From: a virus
Direction: 5' to 3' (one strand)
DNA: 20,379 nt
IMG/VR virus record: IMGVR_UViG_3300022907_001428
Location: 1-20,379 of that record
Positions 5,569 to 18,518 of this stretch are shown here, piece by piece; positions within the stretch are counted from its first letter, which is position 1, and the number at the start of each line of letters is the position of its first letter. Below the pieces are notes generated by a model that worked only from the letters and a program-made list of their open reading frames with translations, had not been told where the DNA came from and searched no databases. The position numbers were made by a program, and so were the translations under genes.

Positions 5569-5676
5569 ATGATGCCATTAGCAATAATCGGATTGTTAGT
5601 TGTAGGTGCAGTAATTGGTGCAGGTGCGTATTATCTGCTTAACAATGTCACTATTAGCAAAGGCAAGCGTAAATGA
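5569..5676 (+). CDS. Membrane peptide, 35 residues, coupled to prohibitin-like gene
   Basis: A 35-codon ORF with an AAAGGA ribosome binding site about eight bases before its ATG. It has a single hydrophobic helix (residues 3-24, LAIIGLLVVGAVIGAGAYYLL) and a basic end (SKGKRK). The stop overlaps the next ATG (ATGA at 5673-5676), so it is probably co-translated with the SPFH protein. As a small membrane partner of an SPFH assembly it would be plausible, but that is inference. Confidence 0.7.
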   Translation: MMPLAIIGLLVVGAVIGAGAYYLLNNVTISKGKRK

Positions 5677-6617
5677 AACGCCCTAATCAAGCAGATTATA
5701 CAAGTCAATATCAATACGAAAACGACATGGACGAATATCGTCAATATATGGAAAGAAAGAAAATGATGCGAACAGGATTTACTATCGGTGGAGCAGTAGT
5801 TGCAGGTCTAATCGGCCTAACTGTGCTTGGAGGTTCTTGGTACACAGTTGACCAAGGTGAACGTGGAGTTATTCTACGTAACGGTGCTATCACTGGTACA
5901 GCAGATCCAGGTCTAGGATTTAAGCTACCTATTGTTGACACAGTAGTCGACATTGATATCCGTACACGAGCAAACTTGTATGAAAATGTAATGGCTTACA
6001 GCCGAGACCAGCAAACAGCAGGACTTAATGTTAGTGTTAACTATCGTGTACCAGCAGACCAAGTGTTGAATGTATACGAAAACTACGGCAGTGTTGAAAA
6101 CCTGCGCAGTCGAGTACTTGATCGTAAAGTATTTGATCAAACCAAGAACGTGTTTGGTCAGTTTAATGCTGTAACAGCGATTCAAGAACGTGCTCGTCTT
6201 GTAGCAGATGTACAGATGGCAATTCAAAATGCTGTACAAGGTCCAATCATTATTGAATCAGTACAGATTGAAAACATTGACTTCTCAGATGCATATGAAA
6301 ACTCGATCGAACAGCGTATGCTTGCAGAAGTCGAAGTTCAAAAGATTCAACAAAACGCAGAGCGTGAGAAGGTGCAAGCTGAGATCAAAGTGATCCAAGC
6401 ACAAGCTGATGCTGATGCTCGAGTTGCACAAGCTACAGCTGAAGCAACAGCAATTACATTGACAGGTAATGCAGAAGCAGAAGCAATCAATGCACGAGGA
6501 CGAGCACTTCGAGACAATCCTACATTGATCCAACTTGTTAGTGCAGAACGTTGGAATGGTGTATTGCCAACCACAATGGTTCCTGGAGCAGCAGTACCGT
6601 TTGTTAACGTAAAGTAA
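5673..6617 (+). CDS. Prohibitin/HflC-like SPFH-domain membrane protein
   Basis: A 314-residue protein. Residues 1-32 are a polar N-terminus, 33-55 a single membrane helix, and about 58-220 an SPFH/band 7 domain (VDQGERGVILRNG, GLGFKLPIVD, NYRVPADQV, IESVQIENIDFSDAYE). A long Ala/Glu/Gln-rich coiled coil (about 222-285) and a hydrophobic end follow. SPFH proteins form ring assemblies on the inner membrane and, as HflK/HflC, hold back the protease FtsH. Prohibitin-like genes are known in T4-like marine phages. A phage version might shield phage proteins from FtsH or act as a membrane scaffold; this is inference. A strong terminator follows. Confidence 0.92.
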   Translation: MKRPNQADYTSQYQYENDMDEYRQYMERKKMMRTGFTIGGAVVAGLIGLTVLGGSWYTVDQGERGVILRNGAITGTADPGLGFKLPIVDTVVDIDIRTRANLYENVMAYSRDQQTAGLNVSVNYRVPADQVLNVYENYGSVENLRSRVLDRKVFDQTKNVFGQFNAVTAIQERARLVADVQMAIQNAVQGPIIIESVQIENIDFSDAYENSIEQRMLAEVEVQKIQQNAEREKVQAEIKVIQAQADADARVAQATAEATAITLTGNAEAEAINARGRALRDNPTLIQLVSAERWNGVLPTTMVPGAAVPFVNVK

Positions 6618-6651: not shown

Positions 6652-6682
6652 TTGACAAACACTTAATACCAGTGTATAAATA
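6652..6682 (+). promoter_or_regulatory. Promoter of the permuted tmRNA gene, with overlapping late-type box
   Basis: TTGACA (6652-6657), a 17-base spacer and TATAAA (6675-6680) form a strong sigma70-like promoter. The -10 box also reads TATAAATA (6675-6682), the exact T4 late promoter core, so one start site may serve host-type and late phage transcription. The predicted start is near 6687, where the acceptor piece of the tmRNA begins. Confidence 0.75.
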
Positions 6683-6686
6683 GTAT

Positions 6687-6749
6687 TGTAACGTTGAAGC
6701 AATTTGACGACTGAACTGGACCCGGGTGCGATTCCCGGCAGCTCCACCA
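6687..6749 (+). ncRNA. ssrA: tmRNA acceptor piece (3' part of a permuted ssrA)
   Basis: The end of this piece has the tmRNA T arm and acceptor end. The T stem CCGGG/CCCGG surrounds loop TGCGATT, and then CAGCTCC (6739-6745) is followed by ACCA (6746-6749) with the CCA encoded. CAGCTCC pairs with GGGGCTG at 6860-6866, 110 bases downstream, giving a seven-pair acceptor stem with one G-U pair. The order 3' piece, spacer, 5' piece is that of circularly permuted tmRNA genes of alphaproteobacteria and some cyanobacteria, whose product is two RNAs. The 5' boundary is estimated from the promoter. Confidence 0.87.
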
Positions 6750-6762
6750 AAAGGATACTACT

Positions 6763-6858
6763 GTGAGTAATACAACTTACTTAAAGTTACAGCGCATACT
6801 ACTGCCCATAGCAGGCATACTTATGCTTATTGGAACAGTTAGTTTAGTATTTTTTTGA
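6763..6858 (+). CDS. 31-codon membrane-peptide ORF in the tmRNA intervening sequence
   Basis: An open frame of 31 codons lies wholly between the two tmRNA pieces. AAAGGA sits seven bases before a GTG start, and the TGA stop ends one base before G1 of the coding piece (6860). The peptide has a short polar start (MSNTTYLKLQR), then a hydrophobic run (ILLPIAGILMLIGTVSLVFF) able to span a membrane. The good ribosome binding site and exact fit to the spacer suggest a real gene, but a chance ORF in a processed spacer cannot be excluded. Confidence 0.5.
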   Translation: MSNTTYLKLQRILLPIAGILMLIGTVSLVFF

Positions 6859-6859
6859 T

Positions 6860-7016
6860 GGGGCTGATCAGGATCGACAGGCAGGATAGAAGAGTGGAGT
6901 TACCGGGATGTAAGCGCCGTACCGCGAACAAACTTTATAATTGCAGAAGCAAATATAGCATTAGCAGCCTAAGGGCAGCTACGAGGTAGTTAGACCTTGT
7001 TACCAAACATAGCAGG
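6860..7016 (+). ncRNA. ssrA: tmRNA coding piece (5' part of a permuted ssrA, with tag reading frame)
   Basis: The piece begins GGGGCTGATCAGGATCGACA, close to the conserved tmRNA 5' end (acceptor strand and D-arm region). It carries a tag frame ending GCA TTA GCA GCC TAA (stop 6970-6972). The tag reads TNFIIAEANIALAA, possibly with an Arg or Ala before it; the resume codon is near 6925-6928 but not certain. The ALAA end is the classic ClpXP/ClpAP degron. The 3' boundary is set by the terminator hairpin and is approximate. tmRNA rescues stalled ribosomes with SmpB. The tag is unlike known alphaproteobacterial ones in its middle. Confidence 0.9.
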
Positions 7017-7042
7017 AAAGGCACCTTCGGGTGCTTTTCTTT
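7017..7042 (+). terminator. Terminator of the tmRNA transcript
   Basis: AAAGGCACC/GGTGCTTTT (one G-U pair) closes a TTCG tetraloop at 7026-7029 and runs into a T-rich stretch. It immediately follows the tmRNA coding piece. Confidence 0.85.
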
Positions 7043-7049
7043 TGACTTC

Positions 7050-7082
7050 TTTCTTTGGACACGGGGTATCTTTCTTTGGACA
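7050..7082 (+). repeat. Two direct copies of TTTCTTTGGACA
   Basis: TTTCTTTGGACA occurs at 7050-7061 and 7071-7082, 21 bases apart (two helical turns), in the spacer between the tmRNA terminator and the next promoter. Spacing on one face of the helix would suit a protein-binding site, but only two copies are seen. Confidence 0.5.
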
Positions 7083-7195: not shown

Positions 7196-7200
7196 GTGGC

Positions 7201-7206
7201 TATAAT
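7201..7206 (+). promoter_or_regulatory. Isolated -10 box TATAAT before the secreted-protein gene
   Basis: A perfect TATAAT lies right after the hairpin RNA and 22 bases before ATG 7229. No good -35 box is found at the proper distance, so it may need an activator or phage factor. Confidence 0.4.
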
Positions 7207-7228
7207 TTCATTACATAGGAGAAACAAA

Positions 7229-7516
7229 ATGAAAACTTTAATCGCATACGCAACAATCGCAATCAGCACAGTACTATTCACATTTGGCCCTGCTCACGCA
7301 TTTATGGACGACACTAACGGTAATCACAGTGGCGGCGCAAATGCACAGATGAATGGCAATGCAGAAGGCAGAGGTGTTGCTACGTTTAGTATGAACTTCT
7401 CAGCAAGTGCAAACACCAAAGGCAACTTTGATGCAGACGGCGAAAGCAACATGCAAAATATGTTTAGCGGTAATGACTACGCTTATCGTCCTTACTACTA
7501 TCCTGCAGAAAAGTAA
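7229..7516 (+). CDS. Small secreted Asn/Gly/Ser-rich protein
   Basis: A 95-residue precursor with a clear signal peptide (residues 1-24, ending PAHA) and AGGAG before ATG 7229. An in-frame upstream extension would run back into the hairpin RNA and is rejected. The mature part is rich in Asn, Gly, Ala, Ser and Met and ends in a Tyr-rich block (YAYRPYYYPAEK). The composition and Tyr-rich tail recall small exported sulfur-globule-type proteins, but the resemblance is weak and may be compositional. It acts outside the inner membrane. Function unknown. Confidence 0.75.
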   Translation: MKTLIAYATIAISTVLFTFGPAHAFMDDTNGNHSGGANAQMNGNAEGRGVATFSMNFSASANTKGNFDADGESNMQNMFSGNDYAYRPYYYPAEK

Positions 7517-7632: not shown

Positions 7633-8214
7633 ATGAAAAAAATTATGATGGTTGCCGCAGCGGCGATGATTAGTACAGCCGCAACAGCCGGTGACTTTGA
7701 TAATACAGCAGTTAAGTTGACTGCTCAATCCGAAGCGTTCTCTGTCAGTGTTAAAGCACCTGAGACAGGCGCAACTGAATTTGCCGTAGGCACTACAGTT
7801 GGTCCAGTTGATGTGACTGGTACTTGGAGCCGTGATGGTTCAACTGATGACTACGCAATTAAAGTAGGTAAAGAAGTTGAAGTTGCTGGTCCTGTATATG
7901 CAGGCGCAAGTGCAGAGTTTACATTTGGTGACAGCTACACAACTGACACTCGTACACTTGTTGCAAGCCCATACGTTGGTGTAGCACATACTATTGGTCA
8001 GTTTACACCATATGCTGAAGTTGGCTATTCGTGGAAAAGCACATCTAACGATGTACTAGGTTTTGCACGTAATGATTCATACTTGGAAGTCGGTGCAAGC
8101 TATGCAGTAACTCCAGCAATGGCAGTCAAACTAAGCGTGTCAGAAACACGTGATATTGACTTTAAAAATGCTGGCGACAGAAATGCAACAGTAGGCGTTA
8201 CTGTAGCGTTCTAA
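7633..8214 (+). CDS. Outer-membrane beta-barrel protein with signal peptide
   Basis: A 193-residue precursor. Residues 1-19 are a signal peptide (cut after ATA). The rest shows alternating-residue amphipathic strands with turn residues between them (VSVKAPETGATEFAVGTTVG, VGVAHTIGQFTPYAEVGYSW, YLEVGASYAV). It ends in a strand with a terminal Phe (VGVTVAF), the usual signal for outer-membrane assembly. Size and pattern suit an 8-stranded barrel, porin-like or OmpX-like. AAAGGAAAC precedes the ATG. An outer-membrane protein made by a phage could change the cell surface, for example to block other phages; that is inference. Confidence 0.8.
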   Translation: MKKIMMVAAAAMISTAATAGDFDNTAVKLTAQSEAFSVSVKAPETGATEFAVGTTVGPVDVTGTWSRDGSTDDYAIKVGKEVEVAGPVYAGASAEFTFGDSYTTDTRTLVASPYVGVAHTIGQFTPYAEVGYSWKSTSNDVLGFARNDSYLEVGASYAVTPAMAVKLSVSETRDIDFKNAGDRNATVGVTVAF

Positions 8215-8416: not shown

Positions 8417-8947
8417 ATGAAAGAAGGTATTTGCGTCCCAGACGTAACATTTAAAACACGAGTTCGCGACGAATCAATTGGCGGAGACAATCCATTCCGT
8501 TGGCAAGACGTTACCTCTAAAGATTATTTCGCAGGCAAGCGTGTAGTAGTATTTTCACTACCAGGTGCATTTACTCCAACTTGCTCAACTTATCAAGTTC
8601 CAGGATTTGAAAACAACTACAATGCTATTCGCGATATGAAAATTGATGAAGTGTATTGTATCAGCGTTAACGATGCGTTTGTTATGAACAAATGGGGTCG
8701 TGACCAATGCGTAGAAAATGTCAAACTTATTCCTGATGGTTCGGGTCGCTTTACTCGCCAAATGGGTATGCTAGTAGACAAAGACAATGTTGGCTTTGGT
8801 ATGCGTAGCTGGCGTTATGCTATGGTGGTTAACAACGGTGTTGTTGAGAAGTTCTTTGAAGAGCCAGGTCGTTCAGATAACTTTGGTGAAGATCCGTACG
8901 GCGAAACATCACCCGAAACAGTAATGGCATATTTAAAAAACAGTTGA
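8417..8947 (+). CDS. Peroxiredoxin, Prx5/PMP20 type
   Basis: A 176-residue protein of the Prx5 subfamily, which reduces hydrogen peroxide and alkyl peroxides with thiols. The peroxidatic Cys is C56 in LPGAFTPTCSTYQVPGF. The family block VYCISVNDAFVMNKWG follows, then the Arg region MRSWRYAMVVNNGVV. The C-terminal DPYGETSPETVMAYL also matches the family. Other Cys residues (6, 78, 97) are not in the usual resolving position, so a 1-Cys mechanism with glutaredoxin or glutathione is likely. AAGGAG precedes the ATG. It probably protects the infected cell from oxidative stress, perhaps together with the phage glutaredoxin. Confidence 0.93.
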   Translation: MKEGICVPDVTFKTRVRDESIGGDNPFRWQDVTSKDYFAGKRVVVFSLPGAFTPTCSTYQVPGFENNYNAIRDMKIDEVYCISVNDAFVMNKWGRDQCVENVKLIPDGSGRFTRQMGMLVDKDNVGFGMRSWRYAMVVNNGVVEKFFEEPGRSDNFGEDPYGETSPETVMAYLKNS

Positions 8948-12632: not shown

Positions 12633-13028
12633 GTGAGTAAAGTTAATATAATCACGCCACCTGATAAATTGTTTAATGACAGTTCTCAGGTACTAATAAT
12701 TTTTCCAACTAAGCAACTTCGATTAGAGTTGCAAGAAACATACCTAAGTACTACTACAGACGATGTTAATGTATATTACTTCGATAAAGAAGTATATGCA
12801 GCAAGTGACATTGATTGGTTATTATCAGTATTTCATCTATCTAATATTGTTATAATAGATGTAGATAATACACCTTCGTATCTAAAAGACCTATTAAGTT
12901 ATATGATATCCAAACCTAAAACATTTTGGTTGACAACCAATCAAAATTCAGTGTATAATCATATAAGCAACAATAGAATACATACGCTAAATTTTTTGTC
13001 AAATAAAGGAGACAATAGCAGTGGCTAA
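12633..13028 (+). CDS. Unknown phage protein, 131 residues
   Basis: The gene begins with GTG at 12633 and is preceded by a weak AGG. It has alternating beta and alpha segments (SQVLIIFPTKQL, VNVYYFDKEVY, NIVIIDVDNTPSYL, TFWLTTNQNSVYNHISNNR), suggesting a Rossmann-like or response-regulator-like fold, but no catalytic motif is clear. I believe similar proteins occur in T4-like cyanophages as hypotheticals. The 3' end contains a promoter and overlaps the bS21 start by eight bases. Confidence 0.75.
   Translation: MSKVNIITPPDKLFNDSSQVLIIFPTKQLRLELQETYLSTTTDDVNVYYFDKEVYAASDIDWLLSVFHLSNIVIIDVDNTPSYLKDLLSYMISKPKTFWLTTNQNSVYNHISNNRIHTLNFLSNKGDNSSG
12930..12959 (+). promoter_or_regulatory. Sigma70-like promoter for bS21 and GMP reductase
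   Basis: TTGACA (12930-12935) and TATAAT (12954-12959) are spaced by 18 bases inside the end of the preceding gene, about 60 bases before the bS21 start. Confidence 0.8.
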
Positions 13029-13284
13029 CTACGATGACAAACCTGCAGGGCGCGGCCTTACAGTAGAAGTGCGCAATGGCGATTTTAATTATGCTTTGCG
13101 AAAGTTTAAAAAGAAAGTACAAGAAGATGGTATTCTACAAACTTTGCGCGAGAAAGAGTTTTTTGAAAAACCAAGCATTAAACGTGCAAAAGCAAAAAAA
13201 GCCGGCCGGGCTCGTTGGTTGAAGAAACAAGCCAAGATGGACGGTGATACAACAACTACGTCAGGTAGCAAACGGAAGCGATAA
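13021..13284 (+). CDS. rpsU: Phage ribosomal protein bS21
   Basis: An 87-residue protein with the bS21 signature: LTVEVRNGDFNYALRKFKKK, then EDGILQTLREKEFFEKPS, then a basic helix with KRAKAKKAGRARWLKKQ. bS21 sits on the 30S platform near the anti-Shine-Dalgarno end of 16S rRNA and helps start translation. Phage copies are known, including in pelagiphages, and may replace the host protein to favour phage messages; the effect is inference. It has an extra basic C-terminal tail relative to typical 60-70 residue bacterial forms. AAGGAG lies nine bases before the GTG start. The next gene starts directly after the stop. Confidence 0.93.
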   Translation: MANYDDKPAGRGLTVEVRNGDFNYALRKFKKKVQEDGILQTLREKEFFEKPSIKRAKAKKAGRARWLKKQAKMDGDTTTTSGSKRKR

Positions 13285-14409
13285 ATGAGAATTGATCAAG
13301 ATATCAAACTAGACTACAAGGATGTACTAATCCGCCCTAAGCGAAGTACACTTAAAAGTCGTAGTGAAGTAAGCCTAGAACGTGGATTTACATTTCGTAA
13401 CTACGTTCCAGACTTTCCAGACAACATAAAAGACGAACACTATCGTGGCATTCCTATTATGGCTGCTAACATGGACGGTGTCGGCACTATGGAAATGGCC
13501 GACAAACTAGCAGAAGGTAATATCTTTACTTGTCTAGTTAAAACATATCCAGTTGAAAACCTAGTTGATTACTTTAATGCAGGTATCAAAGAGCGTACAG
13601 ATAATGTAGCAATGAGTATCGGCACTAGTGACTCAGACTTTAATAAACTTGTTCAAGTATATGAACAATGTGAAGGCAATCTAAAATACGTGTGCATGGA
13701 TATTGCAAACGGATATTCAGAGCACTTTGCAGCTCGAGTGCGTGATGTGCGCAAAGCATTACCACATATTGTAATCATTGCTGGTAACGTAGTAACAGGC
13801 GAAATGACGGAGGAACTTATACTTGCCGGAGCTGATATTGTTAAAGTTGGTATTGGACCTGGGAGTGTTTGCACTACTCGTATCCAAACTGGTGTTGGAT
13901 ACCCGCAGCTCTCCGCTGTTATCGAGTGCGCTGACGCTGCTCACGGTCTCGGTGGGCATATCATTGCTGATGGCGGCTGTACCTGCCCTGGTGACGTGGC
14001 TAAGGCTTTTGCTGCCGGCGCAGACTTTGTAATGCTTGGCGGTATGCTTGCCGGACACGATGAAGGTGGTGGCGAAGTTATTACCAAGTTCTACGAAACA
14101 AATGAAGTTGATAACGAAGGTTATCGAGTAAGAGAAATGAAACAGTTTGTACAGTTCTACGGTATGAGTAGTGACGCAGCAAACACAAAACATTTTGGCG
14201 GATTGAAAAACTATCGTTCGTCAGAAGGTCGTGAAGTACTTGTTCCTTACAGGGGCGAGGTAGCACGAACAGTACAAGACTTGCTCGGAGGCATCCGTTC
14301 AACTTGTACATACGCAGGCGCTATGAAGCTCAAGCAACTTAGCAAATGCACAACCTTTGTTCGTTGTACTCAGCAATTTAATGCTGTTTATGCGAATAAT
14401 AATAAATAA
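13285..14409 (+). CDS. guaC: GMP reductase
   Basis: A 374-residue TIM-barrel enzyme of the IMPDH/GMP reductase family, close to E. coli GuaC. The region [17 protein letters not shown] holds the catalytic Cys (C196). It is followed by [20 protein letters not shown], then DGGC-x4-GDVAKAF and [15 protein letters not shown], and later FYGMSSDAA and [12 protein letters not shown]. Those blocks are GuaC-specific, and no CBS pair is present as in IMPDH. It reduces GMP to IMP with NADPH, feeding purines back to the IMP branch point, which could balance dATP and dGTP supply in step with the phage Nrd. The middle (about 13820-14080) uses Ala GCT/GCC and other codons unlike the GCA-rich neighbours. Confidence 0.93.
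14402..14408 (+). promoter_or_regulatory. Late-promoter-like box ATAAATA before groES
   Basis: ATAAATA lies 12 bases before the GGAA of the leader hairpin. The same box sits at exactly the same distance before the hsp20 leader (16392). In T4 the start site lies about six bases after this box, so the leader hairpin would be at the 5' end of the RNA. Confidence 0.5.
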
Positions 14410-14463: not shown

Positions 14464-16381
<1,918 letters not shown>

Positions 16382-16456: not shown

Positions 16457-16930
16457 ATGACAAGACTTACAACTTTAGACTTACCTAACTTTCATAGAGC
16501 CACTGTTGGCTTTGATAGAATGTTTAATGAACTTGAAAGACAGTTTGCAAACAGTCCAAATGGAAACGGGTATCCCCCATACAATATTGCACAAATCAAC
16601 GACGACGAATACATGATTAGTATTGCTGTCGCTGGCTTTGGTATGGATAACCTTGATATTACAAAGGATGGAAAGATCCTGCGTATTGAAGGAACTGCTC
16701 CTAAGGGAGACGAAAATGTAAACTACCTACACAAAGGAATCGGCGGACGCAACTTCCGTAGAGAGTTTACACTTGCTGACTATGTGGAAGTCGCTGGCGC
16801 AACACTAGAACTAGGTATGCTTAACGTACACCTAAAGCGTGAAGTACCAGAAGCACTGCAACCTAAGAAAATCGCTATTAAAGATTACTCAGGTGCAGTA
16901 CACGAAGCAATTGAAACAGACAGCAAGTAA
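16457..16930 (+). CDS. Small heat shock protein Hsp20/IbpA-like
   Basis: A 157-residue alpha-crystallin family chaperone. The N-terminal HRATVGFDRMFNELE is IbpA-like. The alpha-crystallin domain covers about residues 40-135 (YPPYNIAQINDDEYMISIAV, GMDNLDITKDGKILRIEG, FRREFTLADYVEV, LELGMLNVHLKREVPE). The C-terminal IxI-type motif is in KKIAI. It holds unfolded proteins for refolding. Hsp20 is common in T4-like marine phages. Its leader carries the thermometer-like element, and a G/C-rich hairpin follows the gene. Confidence 0.95.
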   Translation: MTRLTTLDLPNFHRATVGFDRMFNELERQFANSPNGNGYPPYNIAQINDDEYMISIAVAGFGMDNLDITKDGKILRIEGTAPKGDENVNYLHKGIGGRNFRREFTLADYVEVAGATLELGMLNVHLKREVPEALQPKKIAIKDYSGAVHEAIETDSK

Positions 16931-16981: not shown

Positions 16982-17287
16982 ATGGCAACAGATACTGATG
17001 TAAAAATTGATGAAAAAATTAAAATTACAATCAAAGAACCATCTAACTATAATGTAATATTTTTAAATGACGATTCAACTCCTATGGAATGGGTAGTAGA
17101 ACTTTTAAAAACGTTATTCAAACATACTACTGCTAGTGCAGAAGCATTAACAATGGATATTCATAATGAAGGTTCTGCAGTTGTAGGAACTTATAAGTAT
17201 GAAATAGCAGAGCAGAAGGCAGCGGAAGCAACTACTGCAAGTCGCAATCACGGATTTCCACTGCAAGTAAAAATGGAAGAAGCATGA
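16982..17287 (+). CDS. clpS: ClpS, adaptor of the ClpAP protease
   Basis: A 101-residue protein of normal ClpS size. A flexible N-terminus is followed by YNVIFLNDDSTPMEWVVELL, then MDIHNEGSAVVGTYKYEIAE, QKAAEATTASRNHGFPL and a final EE. The N-degron pocket residues are kept: N29, D30 and H61, with the same 32-residue Asn-His spacing as in E. coli. ClpS hands proteins with Leu, Phe, Trp or Tyr at the N-terminus to ClpA, and in E. coli it also turns ClpAP away from ssrA-tagged proteins. The stop overlaps the heme oxygenase start (ATGA). It could redirect host proteolysis. Confidence 0.95.
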   Translation: MATDTDVKIDEKIKITIKEPSNYNVIFLNDDSTPMEWVVELLKTLFKHTTASAEALTMDIHNEGSAVVGTYKYEIAEQKAAEATTASRNHGFPLQVKMEEA

Positions 17288-17832
17288 GCAATTTAAAAGA
17301 ACTTACTTGGGAACATCATAAGAACGCTGAACGTCAAGCATTCGTAAAAGAGATGTTTGCAAAAGAACCACAGATTAGTAAAGAACGATATGCAACATAT
17401 TTGTTCAATCAACATCCTCAATACAACATGCTAGAAATGCTAGCAATGATGCATGGACTGTTTGACGGCATGCCCGAATTGCGTAGAGCTCCACGTATTC
17501 ATGAGGACTATCAAGAACTTTGGGATAAGGACAGTTTTGATCAACCTCCATTAATGCCTGTTGTAAAAGAATACATGGATCATTTAATGTCAATCAAAGA
17601 TGATGCAGACAAATTAATGGCACACGTATATGTAAGACACATGGGAGATCTAAGTGGTGGACAAATGATTGCTAAACGTGTGCCAGGCAGCGGCAAGTTT
17701 TATCAATTTGATAAAGATCACGACGAACTTAAAGAATTAGTACGTGCAAGGCTGAGCGATGATATGGCCGACGAAGCTAAAGTGTGTTTTGATTTTGCTA
17801 CAAAAATGTTTAAAGAGTTGGGCGGCGAATGA
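17284..17832 (+). CDS. Heme oxygenase
   Basis: A 182-residue all-helical protein of the heme oxygenase family, shorter than typical cyanobacterial forms of about 240. The proximal heme ligand is H12 in WEHHKNAERQAF, and the distal helix motif is RHMGDLSGGQMIAKRV (GDLSGGQ at 121-127). The Tyr/Phe-rich middle is also typical. It opens heme with oxygen and reducing power (ferredoxin) to biliverdin, CO and iron. The starts and stops overlap clpS before and a bilin reductase after (ATGA both times), so biliverdin is probably passed straight to that enzyme. The name ho1/hemO is not assigned, since the subtype is uncertain. Confidence 0.94.
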   Translation: MSNLKELTWEHHKNAERQAFVKEMFAKEPQISKERYATYLFNQHPQYNMLEMLAMMHGLFDGMPELRRAPRIHEDYQELWDKDSFDQPPLMPVVKEYMDHLMSIKDDADKLMAHVYVRHMGDLSGGQMIAKRVPGSGKFYQFDKDHDELKELVRARLSDDMADEAKVCFDFATKMFKELGGE

Positions 17833-18518
17833 GTGTTATATGGCAAAGACTAATTGAGTGTAAAGATGAGATTATACAAATCTTTAATGACAAAGCCGTT
17901 GAATTTGAAGAGCCCGGGCTTGCTCACTTTAATAATGATACTTGGGTCAATCGTGTGTGGCGTAATGATCATGTTAGGCGTGCTCATATCGATGTAGTAG
18001 ATGCTCGTGACAGCAAAGGCTTGTGGATGATGCATGTATGTGTATTTCCAACATTAACTAATCCTGGACCTATTTACGGGTTTGATGTAATTGCTGGCAG
18101 GACTAAAATGACAGGTGCGTTTCACGATCTCAGTGCAAGTGCTGACTTAGATAATCCTATGATTGCAGGATACAAGGAAGCTGTCGCAGACTTTATTCCA
18201 ACTAAGCAACGACAGCTACCTGAATGGGCAACAAACATCTTTACAGACAGGATGCTGGCCGCAGGTAATGTAAGCACAGAAGAAGAAGCAGTTGCTATTA
18301 TTGAACTAGCATTAGATAACCTTCGTGCATACTTTGATGAAATTGGTGAGTTTACTGGTACAGGCAATATAGATCTAGTTGCCGCAGCACAGAACTATTA
18401 CTGTCATAATCAGCAACAGAATCCGCACACTCCTCGAACAATGAAGAGTCTAGGTCTTGACGAAGCAGACGTTGATAAGTTCTGTACTGATATGTTGTTT
18501 CCTAAGATAAATACTTAA
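17829..18518 (+). CDS. Ferredoxin-dependent bilin reductase, PcyX-like
   Basis: A 229-residue FDBR family protein. MMHVCVFP carries H69 and PIYGFDVIAGR carries D86, with the same 17-residue spacing as His88 and Asp105 of PcyA. N198 in YYCHNQQQNPHTPRTM matches PcyA Asn219, and the C-terminal DMLFP is typical. The Glu76 of PcyA, needed for phycocyanobilin formation, aligns with D55 (HIDVVD), as expected for an enzyme making another bilin. Together with the heme oxygenase it should reduce biliverdin, probably to phycoerythrobilin, as reported for PcyX of uncultured oceanic phages. The PcyX subtype is inference; PebS or PcyA-like alternatives are less likely. No phycobiliprotein is encoded here. 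Confidence 0.87.
   Translation: MSVIWQRLIECKDEIIQIFNDKAVEFEEPGLAHFNNDTWVNRVWRNDHVRRAHIDVVDARDSKGLWMMHVCVFPTLTNPGPIYGFDVIAGRTKMTGAFHDLSASADLDNPMIAGYKEAVADFIPTKQRQLPEWATNIFTDRMLAAGNVSTEEEAVAIIELALDNLRAYFDEIGEFTGTGNIDLVAAAQNYYCHNQQQNPHTPRTMKSLGLDEADVDKFCTDMLFPKINT
18507..18513 (+). promoter_or_regulatory. Late-promoter-like box ATAAATA
   Basis: ATAAATA overlaps the end of the bilin reductase gene, 24 bases before the next ATG. It matches the boxes at 14402 and 16392. No sigma70-type promoter is seen here. Confidence 0.45.

Follow-up and report, generated by a model that had tools for sequence, protein, structure and literature searches.

An overlapping heme oxygenase–PcyX gene pair, probably translationally coupled and of a non-cyanobacterial marine jumbo myovirus

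The stretch of DNA analysed here (the window; 20,379 bases, the whole of its IMG/VR record and a fragment of an uncultured phage's genome) carries a heme oxygenase gene that overlaps the gene for a PcyX-type ferredoxin-dependent bilin reductase (FDBR). We think it probable, given the genes themselves and those of their relatives, that the two form a translationally coupled heme-to-phycoerythrobilin enzyme pair in a non-cyanobacterial marine jumbo myovirus. The window probably derives from a very large marine phage, and the phage origin assumed in a preliminary description of this DNA is supported.

The gene pair and its predicted products

The following features of the window are used below.

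6657–7063, + strand: permuted tmRNA, tag AEANIALAA (ARAGORN; RF04321, 96.5 bits; RF01850, 87.7 bits)
13021–13284, + strand: ribosomal protein S21 homologue, rpsU, of the same jumbo-phage module (PF01165, 5e-16)
14464–14751, + strand: groES (Cpn10)
14762–16381, + strand: groEL (phrog_5725, 5e-183)
16457–16930, + strand: Hsp20 small heat shock protein, 5' neighbour of the cassette (PF00011)
16982–17287, + strand: clpS, Clp protease adaptor (PF02617, 1.5e-28)
17284–17832, + strand: heme oxygenase (HemO), 182 amino acids (Pfam Heme_oxygenase, PF01126, 3.3e-19, above the curated cut-off; heme oxygenases at E ~1e-9 in a PDB search)
17829–18518, + strand: PcyX-type FDBR, 229 amino acids (Pfam Fe_bilin_red, PF05996, 5.7e-14, above the curated cut-off; PDB 5owg, PcyX, 1.5e-80)

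The preliminary description had reported two overlapping enzyme genes, and the reading frames do share the ATGA at 17829–17832. It had not recorded that the 3' end of clpS overlaps the start of the heme oxygenase gene by ATGA as well (17284–17287); the unit in the window is clpS–hemO–pcyX with hsp20 just 5' of clpS. The groES and groEL genes are optional, being found in some relatives of the window and not in all, and a megablast search of the whole window against isolates gave matches of the groEL type only. The window also encodes an SPFH/Band 7 protein (5673–6617), a peroxiredoxin (8417–8947) and an IMP dehydrogenase/GMP reductase homologue (13285–14409), the last of which is retained 5' of hsp20–clpS–HO–pcyX in most relatives. 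Two weak matches fall below the cut-off: 7633–8214 with a cyanophage outer-membrane-like beta barrel, 7196–7516 with a sulphur globule protein.

H12, at the position of the proximal His, is kept in all 141 aligned heme oxygenase homologues, and the distal-helix motif GDLSGGQ is present in 127 of 146. With both the proximal His and GDLSGGQ, the predicted product of 17284–17832 is by sequence a HemO-type (HO-1-like) heme oxygenase. It is 43% identical to the heme oxygenase of Pelagibacter phage Mosig and only 26–31% identical to those of the cyanophage type.

The best PDB match of the reductase is PcyX_EBK42635 (5owg), with PcyA far behind at ~1e-13. When aligned with PcyA of cyanophage P-SSM4, residues H53, D55, H69, D86 and N198 correspond to PcyA His74, Glu76, His88, Asp105 and Asn219 (numbering in part from PMC10151467), which bears out both the FDBR active site (H69, D86, N198) and the replacement of Glu76 by Asp that had been read from the sequence alone. 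An alignment of 83 non-redundant rows separates the two families at position 55, where 48 of 48 PcyX rows have Asp and 35 of 35 PcyA rows have Glu; the other four positions are invariant throughout. Asp55 has been described as a catalytic residue specific to PcyX, and the same paper ascribes the formation of PCB by the FDBR of phage CB_2 to the lack of this residue (PMC11480375).

A maximum likelihood tree (86 rows, quick method, SH-aLRT), of the kind that the preliminary description had proposed, places the protein inside PcyX and outside PcyA, PebS, PebA and PebB. All PcyX rows form a single, fully supported clade (100) with two parts: M, the Mosig-like part that holds the characterised EBK42635, and J, into which the window falls; J-group and Mosig-type PcyX proteins are ~53% identical. 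Sixteen of the 17 M rows share one branch (support 90), and the basal J/M split has weak support (24 and 37). The PcyX stem is very long and the tree was built without alphaproteobacterial PcyA (the AX lineage), so the branching order among PcyA lineages stays loose. Taken together, the Pfam and PDB matches and the tree indicate that the predicted reductase is a true PcyX, as first proposed. Because it lies in the PcyX clade and shares the Asp55 pattern, phycoerythrobilin (PEB) is its expected product, strongly suggested by family and residues, in agreement with the PEB-type product named in the preliminary description.

Distribution, phage lineage and host

Relatives are encoded by 388 IMG/VR stretches, and a scan based on Mosig gave 194 matches. 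Identical copies of the window's genes occur in two further samples (L002 and L003), and comparison of the window with L006, L012 or L014 gave a dN of ~0.1 for both enzymes against a dS above 1, which is saturating. The 388 stretches, the identical copies and the low dN argue that the cassette is neither chance nor artefact, and the heme oxygenase and pcyX genes are under purifying selection. Of the window's 80 best relatives, 74 have the order clpS–HO–pcyX and 64 have the heme oxygenase gene immediately next to pcyX; in L004 a contig end breaks the order. A nitrilase-like reading frame lies between the two genes in L006 (6560–7357), L007 and L008 have gaps of similar size there, and the gaps of L065–L067 are larger. 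Five related contigs (L019–L023) have pcyX elsewhere and no heme oxygenase gene within the record, apparently encoding an FDBR without an adjacent heme oxygenase; in L019 pcyX adjoins a DNA polymerase gene. In Mosig-type loci a neck-protein gene is next downstream in 70 of 81 cases, and hsp20 lies 5' of clpS in the listed relatives of the window. J-type and Mosig-type cassettes thus occupy two different fixed neighbourhoods.

Marine hemO–pcyX cassettes have been assigned to pelagimyophages (PMC11480375), which fits the Mosig type. The window, with its hsp20–clpS context and with relatives whose structural genes are nearest those of jumbo isolates, does not. As a 20-kb fragment it has no structural genes, and its assignment rests on relatives. 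Its locus is collinear with one (L060) in G037, a record of 357,559 bases. The capsid protein of G037 shares 70% identity with that of Sinorhizobium phage Phosso, 69% with that of Vibrio phage 2.275 and 67% with those of PA5oct-like phages; for its terminase the figures are 55% with PA5oct-like phages and 51% with Atu_ph07. Identity of the lineage's capsid and terminase to those of Mosig is 34–38% (capsid 35–38%). G008, a closer relative of the window, has homologues in G037 for 82 of its 170 predicted genes. A 335,231-base contig, independent of G037, carries PcyX, a capsid protein 89% identical and AlaS (5-aminolevulinate synthase). Set against a definition of the jumbo group as more than 200 kb with the group's capsid and terminase, the 357-kb relative has both proteins and the 335-kb relative the capsid. 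We place the window, on the evidence of its relatives' sequences, in what appears to be a second PcyX group (J) carried by jumbo phages and not in the Mosig type.

The 335,231-base contig (L099 / G049:C57, PBPT01000016.1) is filed under a Candidatus Neomarinimicrobiota (Marinimicrobia) MAG and is probably a near-complete phage that was mis-binned; the same MAG has a second capsid copy on contig C77. Bacterial genomes were considered as carriers of PcyX, and the four "genome" matches look like phage contigs in MAGs, this one among them. A host-encoded FDBR as the source was likewise rejected: when 385 genomes were sampled from the class to which G050 belongs, only three matched PF05996, one through the PcyX contig of the Marinimicrobia MAG and the other two with distant proteins.

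The hsp20 and clpS genes are close together, with hsp20 5' of clpS, in PA5oct, Phosso and Atu_ph07, PA5oct also having rpsU and NrdB nearby, and S21 homologues adjoin clpS in PA5oct, SCTP-2 and Vibrio 2.275. No PcyX or heme oxygenase match was found in the records of PA5oct, Phosso, Atu_ph07 and Vibrio 2.275. Since the first three carry hsp20–clpS without either enzyme, the two enzyme genes were apparently gained downstream of an rpsU–hsp20–clpS module that is ancestral.

As to the host, the permuted tmRNA had been taken to indicate an alphaproteobacterium. Permuted tmRNAs are also found in some cyanobacteria and betaproteobacteria. The best clan member in Rfam for the tmRNA of the window is the betaproteobacterial model (87.7 bits, cut-off 84), the general permuted-tmRNA model matching too, and the betaproteobacterial model is likewise best among clan members for the tmRNA of G037. 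A permuted two-piece tmRNA in this 357-kb relative (L130, 15163–15596) has the tag VAVNDNNFALAA. Among the isolates closest to the jumbo lineage there are phages of alphaproteobacteria as well as of gammaproteobacteria. The step from tmRNA to host is thus not borne out; an alphaproteobacterial host is possible.

Tetrapyrrole supply and the purpose of the bilin

AlaS (TIGR01821, above cut-off) is encoded by six J-type virus records and by the 335-kb contig. Six of the seven carriers have the gene 35–42 kb upstream of pcyX. In the seventh, G037, it sits at the opposite end of the record; a circular genome would place it ~30 kb upstream of pcyX. Records that extend more than 42 kb upstream of pcyX have AlaS in five of six cases, G046 having none. 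A respiratory purpose has been proposed for phage AlaS (PMC11480375), and in the J-type phages it may equally be an aid to respiration. A 2Fe-2S (Fer2) ferredoxin was not found in 27 J-type records, Mosig being the only carrier; J-type PcyX would therefore draw its electrons from a host protein or from a donor of a different type. Ferrochelatase was rejected as a partner: the "putative ferrochelatase" beside the Mosig heme oxygenase has no PF00762 match, nor does any protein of the other records. The annotation of that gene (gene 59; L082, MT647606.1 43207–43977) is doubtful, and it has a 34% identical homologue in G037.

We propose that HemO would open the heme ring, giving biliverdin IXalpha together with CO and Fe2+, and that PcyX would then reduce biliverdin via 15,16-dihydrobiliverdin to PEB in a four-electron reduction, most likely with electrons from host ferredoxin. 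Both enzymes would be made alongside ClpS and Hsp20 from a phage proteostasis operon. During infection the bilin could be a soluble antioxidant, a ligand or, through its synthesis, a sink for heme; light harvesting is the less likely purpose. That the bilin output is the selected function, made with host reductant and for some non-light-harvesting role, is speculative; we nevertheless rank it first, because relatives of the window also carry AlaS.

Next in rank, and in our judgement unlikely, is a role in iron or heme turnover, in which the iron of host hemoproteins would be freed by HemO to supply enzymes of the phage and the virocell. ClpS-directed proteolysis would release the heme, and PcyX would do no more than clear biliverdin. 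The coupling of clpS to the heme oxygenase gene fits such a scheme, as do the many 2OG-Fe(II) oxygenases that accompany the same gene pair in Mosig, and an iron role has been discussed (PMC11480375). However, AlaS in the same phages implies new heme, and making heme only to break it down yields no net iron, so in AlaS-bearing phages the release of iron would by itself explain little. The full PcyX active site is conserved beyond what biliverdin removal needs, and the clpS–HO proximity may be incidental since clpS is ancestral in jumbo relatives that have no heme oxygenase.

Roles tied to light appear less probable still. The bilin might serve a host photoreceptor (a bacteriophytochrome or a bilin-binding globin) and bring a light signal to the infection cycle: Bradyrhizobium ORS278 has hemO–pcyA–alaS adjoining a phytochrome gene, and PcyA of phage CB_2 supplies Cph1 (both PMC11480375). 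But neither PHY (phytochrome) domains nor GAF domains, the latter search having been suggested by the preliminary description, were found in the phage records; the phytochrome chromophore that it had mentioned is not supported by any phage-borne receptor, and we regard this role as improbable. Last comes the upkeep of phycobilisomes in a cyanobacterial host, as suggested for PebS cyanophages, which we consider very improbable. PEB is a light-harvesting chromophore, and this role has been proposed for hemO–pcyX (PMC11480375). Yet the 20.4-kb window has no visible photosynthesis genes, as first noted, and no psbA or other reaction-centre gene was found above cut-off in 49 related records, no CpeT in 28 PcyX records (cyanophage P-SSM4, the positive control, has it) and no phycobilisome family gene in related records, although these absences weigh little because most records are fragments. 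A PF00124 match in G013 (13 bits, internal stop) was dismissed as noise. SAR11 is the host of Mosig, the PcyX phage in culture, and the window's heme oxygenase is far from cyanophage types.

Returning to a bilin made for its own sake, we would put forward, more tentatively than the ranking itself, a global lineage of marine jumbo phages of heterotrophs in which AlaS, HemO and PcyX, joined to ClpS and Hsp20, yield a free phycobilin with no part in light harvesting or in phytochromes. If true, this would be a non-photosynthetic use of PEB in the virocell.

Relation to known systems

The enzyme pair is not new. Phage cassettes with hemO followed directly by pcyX, the arrangement seen in the window, have been published (PMC11480375), and Mosig is in culture. 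The literature covered, which included few subscription papers, yielded no report linking jumbo phages with a bilin reductase or, in substance, a heme oxygenase, a weak sign of novelty. What appears new is the second group, J, whose PcyX genes occur in jumbo phages behind rpsU–hsp20–clpS and with AlaS ~35–42 kb upstream.

PcyX_EBK42635, from an uncultured oceanic phage, belongs to the same FDBR subfamily and has Asp55, Asp86 and His69 in common with the window's protein, but groups with M. Pelagibacter phage Mosig EXVC030M (MT647606) has an overlapping HO–PcyX pair like that of the window (genes 53–54; PcyX 53% and HO 43% identical). In contrast to the jumbo relatives, Mosig is a 141-kb T4-like phage whose cassette adjoins neck genes and 2OG oxygenases, not hsp20–clpS; AlaS was not found in it and a 2Fe-2S ferredoxin is present. 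The 527-kb freshwater phage CB_2, with a predicted Methylocystis host, has hemO–FDBR and a separate AlaS (PMC11480375, PMC7674155), but its FDBR is without Asp55 and makes PCB, and is set apart from the window's PcyX by that published description (PMC11480375). PA5oct, Phosso, Atu_ph07 and Vibrio 2.275, nearest in capsid and terminase, have clpS with hsp20 and/or rpsU nearby but genes other than HO–pcyX after it. PcyX is thus decoupled both from photosynthesis and from a single phage lineage, the gene pair being retained by purifying selection in two distantly related phage groups and two fixed neighbourhoods with no pigment acceptor visible. This repeated retention makes a role of the bilin in phages of heterotrophs testable, with Mosig and Pelagibacter HTCC1062 as a cultured system.
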